48,418 nt of DNA from an uncultured Acidobacteriota bacterium (lineage in GTDB: Bacteria > Acidobacteriota > CAIWXX01). A model generated the notes under the pieces. That model had not been told where the DNA came from. It saw only the letters and a list, made by a program, of their open reading frames with translations, and ran no database searches. A program made the translations under genes and the position numbers. Of this stretch, positions 16,237 to 46,827 are shown piece after piece; the first letter of the stretch is position 1, and the number at the start of each line of letters is the position of its first letter. Where the stretch lies: contig CAIWXX010000097.1 in the NCBI GenBank assembly GCA_903916735.1, positions 1 to 48,418 of the forward strand, written 5' to 3'.

Positions 16237-16775
16237 ATGGGCCACCCAATTTTTCTTGACTTGCAATTGACTGCTGTGAGCAGAAAAACAGCAGGAGTCC
16301 CATCCTCTGCGAACGGCTTCGTATCCTCTTAGAAAATTTTGCCGTTTTCCAATTACTATGATTCTTTCGCGAACCTGGGGCGTTGTCAAAACAGATAGGA
16401 AAATCAATTTCCCCCATGCGTGCATTTTGAGAATAATTATCTGAAATGTCAATATATAGTCGGCACGGCAAAGTCGGGGCCGATATGTATCAGATGCTGT
16501 CAACTCGATTCGGTTCATCAGGTATCACATGAGAGTCTTCATCCTACAGGCCTCGGTTCGACGATCTTACGGGTAGCGTGATGTTCAAATTGTCTGCAGT
16601 GCTGGATGACAGAAGGCTGCCGAGAGAGGTCGTGTTGACCCATTATTACTACAACGGTAGTATTCCTGGTATCCGGTCGGAAAAGGAAACTCCTATAGCC
16701 TGCCCCACTTGGTCTTCATCCGTTGCACGAAGAACCTTTTCACTTTTACGCCGATTATCGGTTCCCATTTTTCGA
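16237..16775. other. Intergenic region between the PKD protein and the type I RM locus
   Basis: This 539-bp stretch is AT-richer than the gene to its left. It contains the short copy of repeat R1 (16607-16700) and otherwise no recognisable gene. The small plus-strand frame at 16578-16799 is created by the repeat itself. Confidence 0.5.
16607..16700 (+). repeat. Repeat R1, copy A (right half only)
   Basis: These 94 bp align without gaps to the right ends of copies B (22592-22791) and C (28789-28988), with few mismatches. It runs from TGACAGAAGG to CTCCTATAGCC. The left half, including one arm of the palindrome seen in copy C, is missing. It lies 75 bp beyond the decayed 3' end of the AlbA_2 gene. 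Confidence 0.85.
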
Positions 16776-17481: not shown

Positions 17482-17541
17482 CTTTAACGACATTCTCTTT
17501 CATTTTCAATTATCCATTCTCAATTTTTAATTTGGTTAACC
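17482..17541. repeat. AT-rich direct repeat, copy 1
   Basis: These 60 bp (CTTTAACGACATTCTCTTTC ... TTGGTTAACC) recur at 17861-17920 with one mismatch. The two copies flank the four-helix-bundle gene, giving a 379-bp repeat-plus-gene unit. The core is built from AATTGA/GAGAATT-like steps shared with the insertion in hsdM. Confidence 0.9.
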
Positions 17542-17882
17542 TTGGAGGTCTTGACAATAGAGACAAGTATTTTCACGAGTTCTTCGCTGTCGGTACGGAT
17601 TGATTCAAAGCGCGGTACACATATGTATTCGGAGTGATGGAGTAATTCCAGCCAGTAAAGTGTCTCGTTGGCTTCCTTGAGGGCAATGGTCATCTTGTGA
17701 ACAAAATCCGCTTTGCTTTCAGCGTGTTCTGCTTCTCGCACCAGCGCCCCAATGGCCGTGCCGCTGCGCAGCACCTGTTTCGACAAAACGAATTCTTTCT
17801 TCTGCTCCTGCAAGTGCTTGGCCAACTTCACCACCCGCAATGCAAAGGCAAACGACTTGTCTTTAACGACATTCTCTTTCAT
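17520..17882 (-). CDS. Four-helix-bundle protein (S23/IVP family)
   Basis: This small helical protein (120 aa) belongs to the family first found in 23S rRNA intervening sequences. The family signature is seen in FALRVVKLAKHL, LSKQVLRSGTAIGALVREAEHAES and FVHKMTIALKEANETLYWLELL. The biochemical role of the family is unknown. A TTG two codons upstream (17888) is possible, but the ATG at 17882 is more likely. The start codon lies inside one 60-bp direct repeat and the stop inside the other, so the gene is exactly bracketed by the repeat. It sits 6 bp downstream of hsdS; in RM loci such genes appear as inserted cassettes. Confidence 0.85.
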   Translation of the reverse strand: MKENVVKDKSFAFALRVVKLAKHLQEQKKEFVLSKQVLRSGTAIGALVREAEHAESKADFVHKMTIALKEANETLYWLELLHHSEYICVPRFESIRTDSEELVKILVSIVKTSKVNQIKN

Positions 17883-17920
17883 TTTCAATTATCCATTCTC
17901 AATTTTCAATTTGGTTAACC
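17861..17920. repeat. AT-rich direct repeat, copy 2
   Basis: This is the second copy of the 60-bp repeat (one mismatch to 17482-17541). It supplies the start of the four-helix-bundle gene and, in another frame, the last codons and stop of hsdS (KLKIENG). Confidence 0.9.
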
Positions 17921-19148: not shown

Positions 19149-21679
19149 ACCGCCCCCATCTTCGTGAGCTGTTCGTCCACGCGAGCGGCCAGCGTCGCTA
19201 CTTGGCTGGTGAGCTGCGGCAGCGGGGTAGCGTAGCGTTCGGCAAGCTCTCGGATGCGCCCGGTGAGCGTCTGCGACACGCGGTCCAGTTCGCCCTGCAC
19301 GGCAGCGGCCAGCGTGGCCTGCCATTTGTCGTCCACCACAAGTGTCTTGATCTCGTCCTCGGTGAGCTTGCCATACTGCGCGGCTACCTTGGCTATGAGC
19401 GCATCCTGCGCCTCCTTGACTTTCGCGATGGTGACCGCCTCCTTTTCGATAAGGGCGAGGTAGTCGCTGAGCACCTTGTGCTCTTCGCCAGAGTCCGCAT
19501 CGCCCTTGATTTCCTTCAGCCGCGCAGCGACAGAGGCCTTGGTGAGCTTGTCCTTGTCGTTCTTCGCCGATTCCAGCAGTCCGTCCTCACCACTGTGTTC
19601 TTCGGCCATTTCTTCCATCGCCTGCTCTATGGCCGCGACCTCGGCTTCCAGCTTCTCGATGGTCCCCTGCTCGGCGGCAAAGTAACTGGCGATGATCAGC
19701 ACAGTAGGGATCAACTCGGCTCTATATTTCAGCTTCCCGACAATGAAGTCGGGCTTTTCTTTCGTCTTGCCGCCTTTCTCCTCGATGATGAGCCGGGGCT
19801 TGGCAGCCTCATACCAGCCGTCGCCCACGATCAGGTAAACGTCGTCCTGCATGGTCATTGCCCAGTAGTCCATGAGGTGTTGATACACATCGTAGGGATC
19901 GAGCAGCCGGGCTTGCTCGAAGGTTTCGAGCAGGTCCTCTGCGAGCGTTTCGATAAGCGCCTTGGGGTTGCCGTCCTGGCGGATACCTTTCAGGCGCGGG
20001 GTGTTCGCCTCCTTCCACTTCGCGAACAGCTTGGTCACCGATTCGTTGTAGGCGGTGAACTCCGCGTGGCCGAAGATGGTTTCTTTAATGGATAATGGAG
20101 AGTTGACAATGGATAATGAAGAGCTTCCAGCGCATCCAACTTTACATTCTCCCTTCTCAATTTTCAATTCTCCATTATCAATTCTCAATTGCGAGTAGCC
20201 GGGGCGGCCGGCATTTTTGAACAACGTAGCACGCACGCCGGGGATGACCTGCCAGTAGCGTTCGAGCGCATCGATGTCGCGCTCCGGGATACCGCCACGC
20301 AGGTGGGCGTCGATGTCCTGCAATTCCTCCGGCTCGGTGCTGTCGATGTAGCGCGGGAGGTTGAGGTTGAAGTCGTTCTTCGGGTCGCTTATCTCGGCCA
20401 CCGACACCATTCGCGAGTAGCGCGGTATTTGGGCCTGGCGCGCGAAGATGTCCACGATCTTATGTATGTCCTGGGCGCGCAGGCGGTTCTTGTTGCCGTC
20501 CTTGATGAAGCCCTTGGAGGCGTCGATCATGAAGATACCCTTGCGGGCCGCGGCGTTTTCCTTGTCGAGCACGATGATGCAGGTGGGGATGCCCGTTCCG
20601 TAGAAGAGGTTCGCCGGCAGGCCAATGACCGCCTTGATGTAGCCGCGCTGCACGAGGTTCTTGCGGATGACGCCCTCGGCGTTGCCCCGGAAGAGGATGC
20701 CGTGGGGGAGAATGCACGCGCCTTTGCCTCCGGGCTTGAGCGAGCGGACAATATGCAACAGGTAGGCGTAGTCGCCCTGCTTGGCGGGCGGCACGCCGTA
20801 GTACTTGAAGCGCTTGAAGGGGTCGTTGGCCGGGTCAAGGCCGTTGCTCCAGCTCTTGTCGGAAAAGGGCGGATTGGCGACGATGTAGTCAAAGGTTTTG
20901 AGCTGGCCGGATACGTCGGTGAAGAGAGGGTTGGCCAGCGTGTTGCCCTGCATGATGAGAGCCGTGGGGTTGTTGTGCAGGATCATATTCATGCGGGCAA
21001 GGCCGTAGGTGGCGGAGTCTTTTTCCTGCCCGTAGAGGGTGACCTTGATGTCTTTGCTATGGCCGGCCTCGTCCCCGACCTTCAGCAGCAGCGAGCCGGA
21101 GCCGCAGGTGGGGTCGTAGACGGTCGTGTCATTCGTCGTGGCGGCGCTGCGGATTCCTAGGAACTGCGCCATGATGCGGCTGACCTCTGCCGGAGTGTAG
21201 AACTGCCCCTTGCTCTTGCCGCTCTCGGTGGCGAAGTGCCGCATGATGTATTCGTAGGCGTCGCCGAGGATGTCGTCGCCGTCGGCGCGGTTCTTCGAGA
21301 AGTCGAGCGAGGGGTTCTCAAAAATGGCAATGAGGTTGGTGAGCCGGTCCACTATCTCCTTGCCGCTGCCGAGCTTGGTGGCATCGTTGAAGTCCGGCAT
21401 GTCGGACAGCTTATTGGCATTGGCCAGCGGTCCGAGGATCTTCTTGTTGATCTGGTCGCCGATGTCGCTCTTACCCTTGAGCGCGACCATGTCCTTGAAG
21501 CCGGCGCCTTCGGGAATCGTGATCGGGGCATAGGGTACGCCGACATATTTATCGGAGACATATTTGACGAACAGCAGGACAAGAACGTAATCCTTGTACT
21601 GGCTGGCATCCATGCCTCCGCGCAGTTCATCGCAACTGGACCAAAGTGAGGAATAAAGTTCGGATTTTTTCAGGGCCAT
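19139..21679 (-). CDS. hsdM: Type I restriction-modification DNA methyltransferase subunit with in-frame repeat insertion
   Basis: HsdM (846 aa) methylates adenine at the target set by HsdS. The N-terminal helical domain begins MALKKSELYSSLWSSCDELR. The SAM-binding motif is DPTCGSGSLLLKV and the catalytic N6-adenine motif NPPF is at residues 269-272. The long C-terminal part after residue 540 is rich in Glu/Lys helices (about 640-840) and exceeds the usual HsdM length of about 500, as in some large HsdM forms. Residues 499-531 are encoded by a 99-bp AT-rich insertion (20087-20185) that keeps the frame. No hsdR gene is present in the window, so only methylation can be expected from this locus. 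Confidence 0.92.
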   Translation of the reverse strand: MALKKSELYSSLWSSCDELRGGMDASQYKDYVLVLLFVKYVSDKYVGVPYAPITIPEGAGFKDMVALKGKSDIGDQINKKILGPLANANKLSDMPDFNDATKLGSGKEIVDRLTNLIAIFENPSLDFSKNRADGDDILGDAYEYIMRHFATESGKSKGQFYTPAEVSRIMAQFLGIRSAATTNDTTVYDPTCGSGSLLLKVGDEAGHSKDIKVTLYGQEKDSATYGLARMNMILHNNPTALIMQGNTLANPLFTDVSGQLKTFDYIVANPPFSDKSWSNGLDPANDPFKRFKYYGVPPAKQGDYAYLLHIVRSLKPGGKGACILPHGILFRGNAEGVIRKNLVQRGYIKAVIGLPANLFYGTGIPTCIIVLDKENAAARKGIFMIDASKGFIKDGNKNRLRAQDIHKIVDIFARQAQIPRYSRMVSVAEISDPKNDFNLNLPRYIDSTEPEELQDIDAHLRGGIPERDIDALERYWQVIPGVRATLFKNAGRPGYSQLRIDNGELKIEKGECKVGCAGSSSLSIVNSPLSIKETIFGHAEFTAYNESVTKLFAKWKEANTPRLKGIRQDGNPKALIETLAEDLLETFEQARLLDPYDVYQHLMDYWAMTMQDDVYLIVGDGWYEAAKPRLIIEEKGGKTKEKPDFIVGKLKYRAELIPTVLIIASYFAAEQGTIEKLEAEVAAIEQAMEEMAEEHSGEDGLLESAKNDKDKLTKASVAARLKEIKGDADSGEEHKVLSDYLALIEKEAVTIAKVKEAQDALIAKVAAQYGKLTEDEIKTLVVDDKWQATLAAAVQGELDRVSQTLTGRIRELAERYATPLPQLTSQVATLAARVDEQLTKMGAVWK
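20087..20185. repeat. AT-rich inverted-repeat insertion inside hsdM
   Basis: This 99-bp (33-codon) segment separates two conserved HsdM blocks, GRPGYSQL and KETIFGHAEFTAYN. Its ends are imperfect inverted repeats built from AATGGATAATGGAGA/TCTCCATTATCAATT steps around a GC-richer centre. It belongs to the same family as the repeats flanking the four-helix-bundle gene at 17482 and 17861. The length is divisible by three and no stop occurs in the hsdM frame. Confidence 0.8.
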
Positions 21680-22085
21680 TTTCTTTTCTACTTTCTAACT
21701 TTTTTCTTTAACATGCAGTTGTACTTGGCCGCTGAGGGCTAGCTTATGCTTAACCGGCGAGCGGGCTTGGCCCGCGAGTCTGGTTGAAACGGTTGTTGGA
21801 TTTTCAAAACAAGCCCATTTGCATGCGTTCATTAATCTCATGCTTTTTCTTAATTTTGGAATGGCACTGCCTCTTCAGTCATCATACCAAAATCACCAGG
21901 AATGGACGTATGACATATGAAAGTCTTTGACGGCCGGCTTCGTATTACGTTCCATGGAATTCGTCCATTGAAATTCATATGAATGCTGATGCCCGTATAT
22001 ATTTCCTTTTGATTCGCTTTCATTAATCCGGGAAGAGCCCCCTTTCTCCCATTGATCTTGAAACCGCAGACTCATAATCCGGATG
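21680..22085. other. Intergenic region upstream of hsdM
   Basis: These 406 bp hold no recognised gene. A two-part hairpin at about 21753-21786 (AACCGG...GCGGGC-TTG-GCCCGC...CTGGTT) is the main visible structure. The hsdM promoter should lie here on the minus strand, but I see no strong consensus. Confidence 0.45.
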
Positions 22086-22499
22086 TCAAGAATCTGTTTC
22101 GGATTTCATATAACCGATCTGGATGAAAGGGGTCTTCCGGTCGCATGCACACTCATTACGCTCATCACGGTAGAAGATGCCGGCGGTTTTTAATTCCTTT
22201 TTGAGACGTGTCCGGGCGCGGTGAAGGCGGATCTTGGCTGCCTGAAGTCTTAATCCAATAATGTCGGCGATTTCAGCGTCTTTAAATCCCTCCAACTCGC
22301 TGAGGACGATGACGGATCGGTAGGTTTCCGGCAGCGTCGCGATAATTTCCCGGATGCAGCCGTTCATTTCCTCACGAATAACCCGCACCTCGGTGGAAGG
22401 CGTTTGCTCAAGATCCTGGCCAGCCTCAAGTTCGTCTTCTAAGTTCTCAAGCTCCCAGATCATCCGCCACCAGCGCGTCCCCCTGAGCCGGAGGAGCAC
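22086..22499 (-). pseudogene. ECF sigma factor, N-terminally truncated (region 4 only)
   Basis: Residues 45-110 are a sigma-70 region 4 domain that binds the -35 element: IREIIATLPETYRSVIVLSELEG, then DAEIADIIGL and KIRLHRARTRLKKEL. The tail FYRDERNECACDRK is typical of a particular ECF group. Region 2, needed for -10 recognition and core binding, is missing. Upstream sequence becomes unrelated and the R1 repeat begins about 90 bp away. No anti-sigma gene follows. It is most likely a remnant of a broken gene. Confidence 0.75.
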
Positions 22500-22591
22500 T
22501 GGGATGACGGTTCCCGCACCGACGCCTCCTGCTACTGATCAGCTCAACGCCAGCCCACGTTGTTCAACTTCTGCATGGTCGGCCATCTCGC

Positions 22592-22791
22592 CAACCGCGC
22601 TTATTGACTCAACCTACAAACCCCCCTACTCTTAACCCGTGATTCAGATGCACTCTGAAAATATATTCTCCTGGCAACCTTCTGTCACCCCCGGGGGTTA
22701 CAGAAGGCTGCCAGGAGAGGTCGTGTTGACCCATTATTACTACAGCGGTAGTATTACTGGTATCCGGTCGGAAAAGGAAACTCCTATAGCC
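22592..22791 (+). repeat. Repeat R1, copy B (200 bp)
   Basis: This copy aligns end to end without gaps to copy C at 28789-28988 (200 bp each), starting CAACCGCGCTTATTGACTC and ending CTCCTATAGCC. Its central palindrome (around 22667-22720) is imperfect, with uncompensated mismatches. The right edge abuts the point where a sulfatase-like gene is cut off. Confidence 0.9.
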
Positions 22792-23366
22792 CTGCCGACA
22801 GACGCAATTGTATATACAGCTTGTGTAACCGCATTGTCATACACGATTCCTTCGGCGGCAAATGCGTCGACGATCGGAGTCGTCGGCCTGCCATAACCGT
22901 AACAGCCGAAATGTGATGCAGTAGCGGCATCGAAAAGCACAACCAGGAGATTGTCATTCTTGTGGCGTGTGCGGAAGTCATCGAACCGATTTCGTTCAAA
23001 ATCCTTCTTCTGTTCTTCCGAATTCTGTTCCACGACGGGATCGACCCAGTAGAGTTTACCGTCCCATGGGTTTCCATTTCCGCCCTTCGCCGAAAATGTG
23101 ATATCGGCTGTACGATTCTGAAATTCCTGTAAATCAATCTTTTGTGTTCGCCCAATCTTTATTTCTCGCTCCAATAGCAATTAATCGGGGGAGTCACTTT
23201 CGATTCGTACCGACGCAGTCAGATCGTCGGCATGTGTTCCTGTAAAACGAGAGGACAGTTTCAGAGAGGGTGCTACTCCAAGGAGAGCGTAGAAACAGAT
23301 GGACCCGGGACGAACCTGCATTAATTCAGAAACCTGTTCCTTTGAAAACTGTTTTGGAGCTTGTTC
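22792..23366 (-). pseudogene. Sulfatase-like protein fragment with in-frame stop, cut by R1
   Basis: Read on the minus strand, coding similarity starts near 23366 (QAPKQFSKEQVSELMQ, then FYALLG) and hits an in-frame TAA at 23181-23183. It then continues as DGKLYWVDP and the sulfatase-fold N-terminus NLLVVLFDAATASHFGCYGYG...FAAEGIVYDNAVTQAVYTIAS. This is the start of an alkaline-phosphatase-superfamily domain of the type lacking the Cys/Ser formylglycine site. The next residues are encoded by R1, so the remaining three quarters of the domain are gone. The stop and the truncation both indicate a dead gene. Confidence 0.7.
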
Positions 23367-28293: not shown

Positions 28294-28781
28294 GGGGCCA
28301 GAGCTACCGCAACCATGTGGGCGATCCGGTATGCGTGGACTGGGTGACGACGGTGAGAAGCCAGTTGTCGGCCCGTTCAGACAAGCCGTTGCAGGATTGG
28401 CGCTGGGCGGCGAGGAATTCACTCGGCGCCTCGTGCACCTCATGAGAGCTGCTGTGAGTGGTGAAGAACCATCTGCCCGGCAACCTCGGCGACACCGCGA
28501 AAAGAGAAGGAGTCCCCAATAGATCGAACAGGCGGTTGAAGACGTGTTTTGAGACGAGCATCCCAGGCGCCGAGCACGGATGTTTCTCTGCGCCCAAAGG
28601 CTGCATTCTCTAATGACCGTGCGAGAGATCGCGGGAACGATACGGGAAAGGCTCGTCTGCTGTCTCGATGGCGGTGAAGGCAATCAAGAGGGAATCTGCG
28701 AACGATTCGAGTTCAGTTGCGAAACTTCAGCAGTTGGGTCAACGCCTGATCACGAAAAGTGAAAAATGAAGACCTGGCCCC
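28294..28781 (+). mobile_element. Decayed RAYT (Y1/REP-associated transposase) element, copy 1
   Basis: The right end carries GAAAAATGAAGACCTGGCCCC, the same terminal sequence as the element at 33469-33891. The left end retains only GGGGCCAG of the matching inverted repeat. Plus-strand reading shows pieces of the Y1 transposase C-terminal region: IPGAEHGCFSAPKGC, then RERYGKGSSAVSMAVKAIKRES. The N-terminal HUH catalytic part is not recognisable. Stops and shifts interrupt the frame. Confidence 0.65.
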
Positions 28782-28788
28782 ACGCCCA

Positions 28789-28988
28789 CAACCGCGCTTA
28801 TTGACTCAACCCACAAAAACCCCTACTCTTAACCCGTGATTCAGATGCACTCCGAAAATATCCTCTCCTGGCAACCTTCTGTCACCCCCGGGGGTGACAG
28901 AAGGTTGCCAGGAGAGGTCGTGTTGGTCCATTATTACTACAGCGGTAGTATTCCTGGTATCCGGTCGGAAAAGGAAACTCCAATAGCC
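28789..28988 (+). repeat. Repeat R1, copy C (200 bp) with a perfect 56-bp palindrome
   Basis: This is the best-preserved copy of R1. Its centre, 28862-28917, is a perfect palindrome of two 28-base arms with no spacer (CCTCTCCTGGCAACCTTCTG... and its complement). The left 73 bp include TTGACT and TACTCT separated by 17 bp, a weak promoter-like pair that is also kept in copy B. The right 70 bp contain a TACTAC-AGCG-GTAGTA hairpin. The copy begins 7 bp after the RAYT remnant and ends 21 bp before the next gene's ATG. Confidence 0.9.
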
Positions 28989-29009
28989 TATTCCCAGGAG
29001 GTAATCGAT

Positions 29010-30437
29010 ATGAAACAGTTCCGCCTTCCATTCTTCCTGACCCTTTTCTTTTGTATAGTGCTTTGTTTTTCAGTTTCGGTTGAGGCACAAATTGGACCCG
29101 ACAGAGGCGAAGCCTTTAAGGTGCAGGGGGATATCGACCCTTATGAGGTTACTCTTTATCGAAGTGCAGGCTACGCTGATCCGATCGGGACATGGAAACT
29201 TTCACTCGGCATGCGAATGCTGAAAATTCCGGATATTGGCGGCACTCCCAGATCCATGCTCCTGGGCTCCAAGGTCCGGGCGTTGCTGTTCCCCAGAAGT
29301 GATTTTTCTGCACTCTTGGGGCAGGACTTTGTGTATCGGGATCCCTTTCCTTACATCAAGGTTTTGAATTCAACGCCAGATCTGCAATATACTGGCGAGT
29401 CACTTATTATCCATCGTAAAGACATATCTGATTTCATTGGTGTTTATCTGCTATCAGGACCATCAGATACCTCTGCGGGTGAATTCTATCCGCTACCCGA
29501 GAAGGCCGACGAATCGGCGATAATCTATCATAAAATATCTTACGGAGGGCCGTTCATTGTGGAGTTTATTCATGGCGGTGCTGATACAGGCTTGGCTATG
29601 CAGTGGTCGCCTAACTCCCGCAGCCTTTATGAAATGGAAGTCAACATAACGTCCGACAATGGGGTCACACTGAGGTTGCCGGACCCCGATGGATACAGCA
29701 TTATTAAGGGGTACCCCTTCGATCTTGCAAAATATAAGGTTGGACGGATTTCCTCTATGTACATTCAATACAAAGGGCCATATACTGCACAGTCATACCT
29801 GGATATTAGCCGCGAACGGGCGCCGGCGGCTCCCGACTCGGTCCCTGCAGAGCCGTCTTTGTCTGCGGCAGCGGTCAATGTTGCTGGAACCTGGCAGAGC
29901 GGCGCAGGAGCCGTCTACGAGTTCCAGCAGAAGGGGGCCACGTTTACCTGGACCTCGGCCGCATTGGGACAGCAGGGCTCTGGCGCGGTGAACGGAAAGG
30001 CCGTCACCACCCAGTGGACGGGTAGCGGCGGATCCGGATCGGCGACGGGACAGATCACCCAGATCAACTCCGCCGGATTGGCATCATGCATCGAGTGGAA
30101 CAACGGCGTGTCCTTTATCCGGCCGCTCGATCGCCTGGTTGGATCCACGACGCTGGTCCCGGCAGAGCAACTCCAGTCGGCAGTGGTTGATGTCTCCGGG
30201 CCGTGGAAAGGGCCGATGGGTGCCGCCTATCAGTTCACCCAGAACGGCGCTCAGTTCAGCTGGACGGTCGCGCTGACGGGTGAGAAGGCGACCGGAACCA
30301 TGACCGGGATGGACGTAACTGCCCAGTGGTCGGGGCCGGTGGGCCAGGGATCGGCTAAGGGCACGATCGCCAAAGTAGACCCGGGCGGCAGGGCGAGCAG
30401 GATTGAATGGTCCAACGGCGTGGTGTTTGTCCGTTGA
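29010..30437 (+). CDS. Secreted protein with two tandem C-terminal beta repeats, function unknown
   Basis: I do not recognise this 475-aa protein. Residues 1-25 are a signal peptide (MKQFRLPFFLTLFFCIVLCF...). Residues 30-280 form an unclassified domain. Residues about 288-372 and 392-475 are tandem copies of one unit: VNVAGTWQSGAGAVYEF...ASCIEWNNGVSFIR and VDVSGPWKGPMGAAYQF...ASRIEWSNGVVFVR. The alternation of hydrophobic and small residues suggests a beta barrel or sandwich, such as an MLTR/lipocalin-like fold. The ATG at 29010 has a CCAGGAGGTAATCG ribosome site and starts a proper leader. The frame stays open 58 codons upstream through repeat R1, which I regard as coincidental. The ribosome site directly follows R1, so R1 may act as its leader. 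Confidence 0.72.
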   Translation: MKQFRLPFFLTLFFCIVLCFSVSVEAQIGPDRGEAFKVQGDIDPYEVTLYRSAGYADPIGTWKLSLGMRMLKIPDIGGTPRSMLLGSKVRALLFPRSDFSALLGQDFVYRDPFPYIKVLNSTPDLQYTGESLIIHRKDISDFIGVYLLSGPSDTSAGEFYPLPEKADESAIIYHKISYGGPFIVEFIHGGADTGLAMQWSPNSRSLYEMEVNITSDNGVTLRLPDPDGYSIIKGYPFDLAKYKVGRISSMYIQYKGPYTAQSYLDISRERAPAAPDSVPAEPSLSAAAVNVAGTWQSGAGAVYEFQQKGATFTWTSAALGQQGSGAVNGKAVTTQWTGSGGSGSATGQITQINSAGLASCIEWNNGVSFIRPLDRLVGSTTLVPAEQLQSAVVDVSGPWKGPMGAAYQFTQNGAQFSWTVALTGEKATGTMTGMDVTAQWSGPVGQGSAKGTIAKVDPGGRASRIEWSNGVVFVR

Positions 30438-33399: not shown

Positions 33400-33468
33400 G
33401 GTCAACGCGTAGAACCGCGGCGATCCGATCGGATCGAACTCCGTAAAGAGACCGCCGACCATGAGGAT
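33400..33468 (-). pseudogene. ADOP-type FtsX permease fragment, proximal part
   Basis: Minus-strand codons read MVGGLFTEFDPIGSPRFYALT, the segment that precedes the LYGxLSYSVSxRTREIG block in FtsX-like permeases. The ALT codons are the 10-bp target duplication. The rest of the gene upstream is replaced by the RAYT remnant starting at 33469. Confidence 0.7.
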
Positions 33469-33891
33469 GGGGCCAGGTCTTCATTTTTTCATTTTTGTTG
33501 TCTTGCTGGTGTTGGAAGGAAACGCGAGATAGCATGGAGACATGCGTCGGCCGACGAGGATCGAGTTCGATGGTTCGCTCTGCCACGTCATGTCCCGCAG
33601 CGTGGGCCGCATGGCGGTCTTTCTCGAAGACTCCAATCGGATCGACTTCCTGGTCGGAAGGAGCTTCCCTGGCGCTGGGCACGGATGCTTCTGTACGCCC
33701 AGATGCTGTATTCATTGATGACGGTAAGCGAGATCGCCGAACGGTATGGAAGGGGAGCTTCAGCCGCCTCGATGACGGCGAAAGCCATCAGATTGGAATC
33801 CGAGACCCCCATCCCCGGATGGCGGCAAATCTCCGGCTGTTGGATCAACGCTTGACAACTACGAAAAATGAAAAATGAAGACCTGACCCCG
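33469..33891 (+). mobile_element. Internally deleted RAYT (Y1 transposase) element, copy 2
   Basis: The ends are inverted repeats: GGGGCCAGGTCTTCATTTTT on the left and, inverted, GGGGTCAGGTCTTCATTTTT on the right. The frame starting at 33541 reads MRRPTRIEFDGSLCHVMSRS, the HUH-transposase N-terminus, then VFLEDSNRIDFLVG. It jumps to C-terminal pieces GAGHGCFC and, in another frame, TVSEIAERYGRGASAASM. The central region with the catalytic tyrosine is missing, so the element cannot move itself. It ends the ADOP fragment on its left side. Confidence 0.75.
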
Positions 33892-36095: not shown

Positions 36096-36457
36096 ACCCG
36101 GCGCAACATCCTGCATGCCCAGTCCTTTTCTATCGCTTGACATTCCCTAACCTTGCGTAGCCAGAACCAAAGGCGGAGGCAGCACCAATCGCAATCCTGG
36201 ACTTCTCCGGAAGCGAGGAAGGGAGGAATGCAGGAGCGGACTTTGTTATCGACCAGTGGTGGTTCCATAAACTATTCCTGCATTGCCGAGAGGAATTCAC
36301 GATTTTGCCCTGTCACTACTTTTCCATTTTGTGTACAGATTTCACCGGTAACACACTATTGATCGCTGTCCTGGTTCAAGGAAGCTCTGCCTGGCTGCCT
36401 GCTATAGAGCCTGATGGAAGAAACTGCCATTGACTCGTTGAGCGCCGCCCCTGCCTT
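36096..36457. other. Intergenic region containing a dispersed repeat
   Basis: This 362-bp gap between the converging FHA and ymdB genes contains repeat R2 copy 1 (36201-36349). No coding region or RNA gene was recognised in it. Confidence 0.5.
36201..36349 (-). repeat. Dispersed repeat R2, copy 1
   Basis: The complement of this 149-bp stretch aligns along its whole length with 46431-46580. Shared blocks include CGGTGAAATC, CACAAAATGG, ATCGTGAATTCCTCTC and CTGGTCGATA, at an estimated 70-75 % identity. Neither copy has a convincing open frame. Confidence 0.65.
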
Positions 36458-38815: not shown

Positions 38816-38919
38816 TCGGCTGTCCCTCTGCCATTGCCTTTCGCAGCACCGGATCATTCTCCTTCTGTCGCCAAGCGATATTTTTGATTTTCATGGATGT
38901 GATCCGGTTTATTTCCATA

Positions 38920-39091
38920 CCCCGCCGTGCCGTGTGGAGCGTCCGTTTGAACCTGTCAAACAGGTGGTCACCCTATCCACGCATCAGGCTTCTGCGGCGC
39001 GAGGCTACAGCGTGCACACAACATGGAAAATCAGGCTCCCTTTCAATGGACTGTTGGCTCAAACATATCAACCATCACGAACACGGCAGGG
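38920..39091 (-). ncRNA. ssrS: 6S RNA
   Basis: 6S RNA binds the housekeeping RNA polymerase and tunes transcription in stationary phase. The 334-bp gap between zapA and rny is the classical location. Read on the minus strand, the ends form a closing stem, CCCTGCCGTG at the 5' end with CACGGCGGGG at the 3' end. Family-like features include GAGCCAAC near the 5' side and CACCTGTTTGACAGGTTCAA, then GGACGCTCC, on the 3' side. The length of about 172 nt is close to known 6S RNAs. Ends are approximate. Confidence 0.72.
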
Positions 39092-39149
39092 ATTTAAGTT
39101 CCTTCCGCTTCTTAACATTCTACAATGTCACGCCAATTGTCAAGGACGA

Positions 39150-46181: not shown

Positions 46182-46827
46182 CCATATCCAGCAATCGAAA
46201 GAAAATATTGCCCCCTCAGGGGCGCCGGAACAAGGAAACTAGCAGAATTCCCGGAGCCAGTCAAGAACGCTGAATGAGTTGACGGTTTCAGTTCCTGGTT
46301 CCCCGTAATAAATTGCCTGTTTTGGGCGCCTCGAAAAGCTTGCCTGGATGTCATCTTGAAGTTTTCGAACGCAACTCAAGCGATGTCTCGGGCGAAATCA
46401 TATGTGATCCAGAGCGGGGCTTGTATCTGATCGGTGAAATCCGTGCACAAAATGGCAAAAGTTGTTATTTGGCAGGATCGTGAATTCCTCTCAGGAAGCC
46501 GGGAATGACTTGTGAAACCGCCGCTGGTCGATATGAAAATCCGTTCCTGCTTTCCTCTCTTCCTGCATTCCTGAGAGGTTCGGTAGCGATGGTTGTCAAA
46601 GACATCTTGTTTGGTTGCGGCTATGCCGCGTTAGGATCTTCAGTCCATATCAGACTGCCGCTTGATTCGAGAGATGTCCCAGTCCTTTCCAGCCCCTTCA
46701 CAATGACCTGTAGGAATTCCTTCCTGGAAAGTGAGCTGACCCTTGGGTCGATCAAAAACGTTCCCAAGCCGACTTATCAGGGGACTGAGTGTGAAAGTTG
46801 GGTTGTCTGAGAACTGGGACGTTTAGT
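46182..46827. other. Intergenic region between two tRNA genes
   Basis: These 646 bp contain repeat R2 copy 2 (46431-46580). The plus-strand frame at 46505-46810 shows no family features and is not supported as a gene. Confidence 0.5.
46431..46580 (+). repeat. Dispersed repeat R2, copy 2
   Basis: This 150-bp stretch matches the complement of 36201-36349 along its length, in inverted orientation and about 10 kb apart. It lies between tRNA-Val and tRNA-fMet. Confidence 0.65.

Follow-up and report, generated by a model that had tools for sequence, protein, structure and literature searches.

IS91 and ISCR elements mobilise resistance genes, and the steps that start and stop their movement are poorly resolved. 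According to the available part of a review, the IS91 transposase nicks the element at ori and displaces one strand, with a second cut at ter (PMC5714925). The accessible text on ISCR1 gives its oriIS as GTGGTTTATACTTCCTATACCC (PMC13023784), and that on ISCR27 gives GCGGTTGAACTTCCTATACC, located 236 bp past the stop codon (PMC8894482). IS91 and IS801, like the family described here, have a Y2 transposase and need their right end, and the available sections of a study of IS801 in P. syringae report trapped, right-end-intact fragments of 229, 360 and 679 nt that arose by one-ended transposition (PMC3189936).

The repeat examined here, R1, is 200 bp long and lies in a window of 48,418 nucleotides, the whole stretch of DNA analysed, which is contig C97 of the assembly (5.37 Mb, 183 contigs) of an uncultured Acidobacteriota bacterium. 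The initial annotation proposed that it could be a small mobile element, a resolution site or a structured leader RNA. As far as sequence comparison can tell, R1 is almost certainly the right, oriIS-bearing end of a rolling-circle insertion sequence of the IS91 family (Y2 HUH transposase), and it is very likely that the best explanation of the whole is an IS91-family oriIS end with the palindrome found within R1 as a subterminal structure. R1 is not a free-standing element and probably not a leader RNA. The idea of a mobile element stands in that R1 is part of one, namely an origin end of a known kind, but R1 does not form an element of its own.

Copies of R1 and the IS91-family right end

All three plus-oriented copies reported in the window were recovered, with copy A beginning at 16604 instead of 16607. 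Copy B (22592-22791) and copy C (28789-28988) align without gaps over 200 bases at 94% identity, and copy A (16604-16700), a shorter right-end fragment that begins within the right arm of the palindrome, corresponds to R1 positions 104-200 (92% identity). Copy C is a solo right (oriIS) end on the plus strand that shares the fixed right end, has its left boundary at 28789/28790 and contains no remaining tnpA sequence. A further 183 bases are common to copy B and other copies and move its start left to approximately 22409, making it a left-truncated IS91-family end (22409-22791, plus strand) in which a C-terminal remnant of tnpA (22409-22538) precedes R1. A C-terminal remnant is the most of tnpA that any copy in the window retains.

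Searching the whole assembly with BLASTN, as the initial annotation had recommended, revealed further copies. R1 gave 42 matches, which reduce to 33 copies after removal of 8 matches of the palindrome to its own complement and merging of two pieces of one copy; this is a lower bound, the candidates scored being 40 of the 54 seen at first look. Subfamily A includes the copies in the window, and its complete members have 89-94% identity to copy C; for subfamily B the figure is approximately 71-75%.

R1 is identified as an IS91-family end by its fixed right end with unrelated downstream flanks, tnpA remnants upstream, an oriIS motif and intact relatives. The aligned copies share a single right-hand stop at ...GGAAACTCCTATAGCC or ...GCAAACCCCTATAGCC, and an all-against-all comparison of the downstream flanks was empty, with nothing in common past that point. 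Extra upstream sequence of varied length is present in 9 of the 27 copies that were fetched (L002, L003, L004, L005, L007, L012, L019, L023 and L030). This shared sequence codes for the C-terminus of the transposase, and in L030 it extends back to the PHVHG motif. The combination of a fixed right end and a variable left end is as in IS91, though deletion can yield the same pattern.

The terminal motif of copy C, GGAAAAGGAAACTCCAATAGCC (28966-28988, plus strand), includes TCCAATA, one base different from the TCCTATA of the family. The family right end, GGAAAAGCAAATTCCTATAgCC, corresponds to the oriIS sequences published for ISCR1 and ISCR27, and each of the six known IS91/ISCR elements retrieved as controls has TTCCTAT at its right end. 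R1 resembles ISCR1, ISCR27 and ISCR2/ISVsa3 in having a terminal (T)TCCTATA downstream of tnpA, as is typical of an IS91 oriIS.

The gene to which relatives of R1 are linked is of the Y2 type, REP/RAYT repeats being associated with a Y1 TnpA-REP gene. Intact elements whose ends are organised in the same way occur in the host genome (contig C82, 428 aa) and in a sister genome (G001). The Pfam domains Zn_Tnp_IS91 and Y2_Tnp were detected in 3/3 intact relatives, which accordingly carry the Y2 HUH transposase and zinc-binding domain seen in IS91, and 2/3 pass the NCBIfam IS91 equivalog cut-off. However, no intact tnpA is joined to an A- or B-type R1 in the host assembly, which counts against the identification. 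Among 396 genomes of Acidobacteriota, 12 matched the transposase alignment at E 1e-60 or better; narrowed to the class of the host, this search covered only 2 genomes. Membership of a known repeat family, which the initial annotation had set against its own reading of R1, is therefore what was found.

A miniature inverted-repeat element (MITE) was considered and rejected. The left ends vary by copy, inverted repeats are not present at both termini, and the sole long inverted repeat is internal.

The subterminal palindrome

The palindrome of copy C (28862-28917) is perfect over 56 bp, as originally described, with two 28-base arms, no spacer and 28/28 Watson-Crick pairs. The number of such palindromes expected by chance in the window is about 7e-13, and the predicted folding energy of the 56-mer is -33.5 kcal/mol with DNA parameters. 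The counterpart in copy B (22665-22720) is imperfect, and its arm changes are indeed without compensation. The TACTAC-AGCG-GTAGTA hairpin noted closer to the end is also present, at 28935-28950, and similar short end-proximal dyads are found in L033 and L041. The possibility that the palindrome is a separate repeat was rejected, as its sole BLASTN matches in the host genome fall inside R1 copies. Across the two sister genomes its sequence differs by lineage, with palindromes of 48 bp in L033, 57 bp in L036, 46 bp in L047, 36 bp in L050, 60 bp in L064 and 30 bp in L031.

The distribution of the palindrome was surveyed in 31 distinct right ends in which a TnpA C-terminus was found along with the end motif. 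The highest-scoring palindrome in the last 170 bp of each end was compared with 60 dinucleotide-shuffled versions. Loci without the motif (65) or without the C-terminus (17) fall outside this set, among them L030, L034, L054, L059, L137 and L145, several of which bear palindromes, and in two of the ends included (L060 and L103) the motif is perhaps a chance TTCCTAT. Scores of 15-29 were obtained for 12/31 ends, the top shuffle value being 13, and each of these 12 has a near-perfect palindrome of 30-60 bp that stops 56-83 bp short of the motif's end. The host and sister genome supply eight of them, and the others come from Lentisphaerae (L070), Planctomycetia (L079), Rhodopirellula (L089) and an uncultured proteobacterium (L104). 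The other 19 ends have a weak palindrome (score 9 or less) or none. No long palindrome was found within 170 bp of the six classical IS91/ISCR ends (score 5-6), and the copies of ISCR1 and ISVsa3 (best 5-6) and the IS91 copy L118 differ from R1 in this respect.

The 19 ends lacking a strong palindrome, together with L040, in which a 452-codon tnpA frame is open but only a stub of the palindrome remains, indicate that the family can do without it. Loss is also seen in other close relatives: in L041 the palindrome has disappeared between two GGCC words, and L164 differs from L064 by the absence of exactly the palindrome and one base. No such palindrome in an IS91-family end appeared in the titles and opening lines of abstracts among the matches listed, which come mostly from outside the subscription journals. 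Within the literature that was searchable, this family is known already, but the structure at its end appears not to have been described.

The covariance check proposed in the initial annotation showed matched changes between lineages. When the consensus arms of subfamilies A and B are compared, 5 of 25 positions are different, each with a change in both arms; one of these is an A-C mismatch in the A consensus but A-T in copy C itself. One compensated pair also distinguishes L033 from L056. Within subfamilies A and B, 30 private changes were counted, of which 22 leave the position unpaired and 8 give G-T, and none is compensated; among the 12 B copies, L024 was excluded from this count because of its foreign left part, and L020 has no left arm. 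Centre-anchored comparisons of L036, L064 and L070, which had come out off centre, and of L031, read on the opposite strand, do not enter the counts. Of 331 arm pairs scored, 318 are Watson-Crick. Over 14 palindromes there are 3 G-T pairs versus 10 other non-Watson-Crick pairs, a count biased against G-T in that the palindrome finder scores Watson-Crick matches alone. As G-T is not favoured, there is no sign of selection for an RNA helix. The pattern suggests that pairing is maintained during mobility, by restoration or by selection, and decays after a copy becomes fixed. Matched changes between lineages combined with uncompensated private changes weigh against a simple process of continuous correction and in favour of a function linked to mobility.

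Outward promoter-like site and possible roles of the palindrome

The promoter-like TTGACT-N17-TACTCT is present in copy C (28801-28829, plus strand) as first described, with TTGACT at 28801-28806 and TACTCT at 28824-28829. It was not reported by a generic promoter scan, and the case for it is its conservation among related ends: of 17 ends with a palindrome, 13 have TTGAC 45-76 bp upstream of it. Outward promoters near oriIS have been tested in ISCR1, according to the accessible part of that work (PMC6218425), and this is the likely meaning of the site in R1.

The end of copy C is separated by 21 bases from the start codon of a 475 aa gene (29010-30437, plus strand) that is preceded by a strong Shine-Dalgarno sequence, AGGAGG (28996-29001). 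The predicted product has a hydrophobic N-terminus resembling a signal peptide and no Pfam match. Given this spacing, a hairpin-carrying transcript of the gene could start in R1. More generally, a co-directional Shine-Dalgarno sequence and ORF occur within 150 bases after 11 of 34 right ends, compared with 81 of 1240 random positions in the flanks and none of 14 left ends read outward. The right ends comprise 23 R1 copies and 11 relatives, with related copies included, the Shine-Dalgarno rule was a simple one, and two of the 11 matches are ORFs of only 62 and 71 codons. The excess, which is suggestive only, fits either retention of ends where an outward promoter is useful or an insertion bias. 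Together with the promoter-like sites, it raises the prospect that these ends could rewire gene expression in a phylum that has received little study.

In types A and B, L030, L033 and L056, a frame that begins with a GTG or ATG past the -10 box stays open as far as the right end. In copy C it continues from the GTG in frame into the downstream gene (28836-30437, plus strand), and L031 has a similar read-through open frame. A small coding sequence within R1 was rejected, as pN/pS values are 0.65-1.12 with similar values in the other two frames, and L031, L047 and L057 do not have this frame open.

We tentatively favour a role for the palindrome, which lies between the outward promoter-like site and the putative nick site, as a hairpin on the displaced single strand. 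Lying approximately 60-80 nt from the start of that strand, the palindrome would fold soon after the nick at oriIS, and the hairpin could act via its shape rather than its sequence in initiation, transposase retention or synthesis of the complementary strand. It is conceivable, at a similarly cautious level, that these ends represent a class of IS91-type elements in which a hairpin at the initiating end has a conserved form and position but a variable sequence (a stem of 15-29 bp, 56-83 bp from the motif), works in the single-stranded intermediate and is free to diverge between elements without loss of function. This would be a bacterial counterpart, at the opposite end, of the terminal hairpin of Helitrons. 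Shape can matter in that related system: the available text on the Helitron Helraiser reports that the hairpin stem is exchangeable, with about 90% of activity kept, and that corrected transposition is 8.8% when the hairpin is deleted (PMC4778049). The Helraiser hairpin, on the evidence of the same text, is 19 bp, eukaryotic and at the terminating end, whereas R1-type palindromes are 30-60 bp and at the initiating end. Palindrome-bearing ends are known here from Acidobacteriota, Planctomycetota, Lentisphaerae and an uncultured proteobacterium. Integron attC sites similarly combine variable sequence with conserved folding and are used as single strands, but by a different recombinase. Divergent IS91 ends share the position of this structure, and its two arms change in concert, which offers a direct handle on transposition.

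Other explanations begin from different parts of the same data. In one, the palindrome would be a transcriptional insulator or terminator, protecting the element from transcription that enters from outside or modulating its outward promoter. It directly follows the promoter-like site, and a run of at least 4 T lies within 14 bases past the hairpin, reading into the element, in 9 of 17 ends. This reading is unlikely, however, since the inward run is missing from the remaining 8, an outward run of 4 T is found in 2/17, and the palindrome was not reported by a terminator scan. Less probable again is that it is functionless and owes its perfection to mutational correction, with template switching from arm to arm and covariation as a by-product. 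Correction of quasi-palindromes is a known process and would account for arms that are so nearly pure Watson-Crick, but it would have to be limited to the replicating intermediate to fit the lack of compensated private changes in resident copies, and the distance from palindrome to end is constant across phyla.

The structured leader RNA of the initial annotation, here one made from the outward promoter and controlling downstream genes, draws on the excess of co-directional gene starts after right ends. It now appears improbable, more so than either of the preceding readings: Rfam gave no match at gathering score, only sub-threshold generic hairpins, and a helix whose sequence is not conserved between lineages and in which G-T pairs are not favoured is not what such an RNA would be expected to have. 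No evidence was found for a resolution site, and that proposal is not supported.

Truncated copies and other features of the window

The copies in the window are left-truncated remnants that may have arisen either by one-ended transposition from oriIS or by later deletion or recombination. That they derive by deletion or recombination from once complete elements is almost an even call. Copy B lies between a broken ECF-sigma-like gene fragment and a sulfatase N-terminal fragment (21650-22420 and 22740-23180, both minus strand), the former label being a reading of the translation, and the parting of two fragments on the same strand looks like rearrangement. Most natural IS801 fragments in P. syringae were also ascribed to reorganisation, according to the available sections of that study (PMC3189936). 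On the other side, right-end sequence is kept in all copies found and left ends are varied, a result biased by the use of a right-end query. Insertion in the IS91 family is at a target tetranucleotide and leaves no target duplication. The left boundaries are at CAAG in copy B and CAAC/AACC in copy C, and at CATC, GATG, ATCG, GCGC and others elsewhere, with no tetranucleotide common to all.

Three truncated B copies (L024, L025 and L029) have one common left neighbour, CATGCCGGGCGCA, as if they had been co-amplified or inserted into another repeat. In the window, a repeat, AAAAATGAAGACCTGaCCCC, at 28752-28781 stops approximately 7 bases to the left of copy C and is found again at 33861-33890 and, inverted, at 33468-33498. 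AT-rich repeats (17482-17541, 17861-17920 and 20140-20199) adjoin the type I restriction-modification genes hsdS and hsdM. An inverted pair of 130-base segments (36201-36330 and 46450-46579), 75% complementary, is separated by 10 kb, and a 6S RNA was identified with Rfam at 38915-39095 on the minus strand (92 bits).
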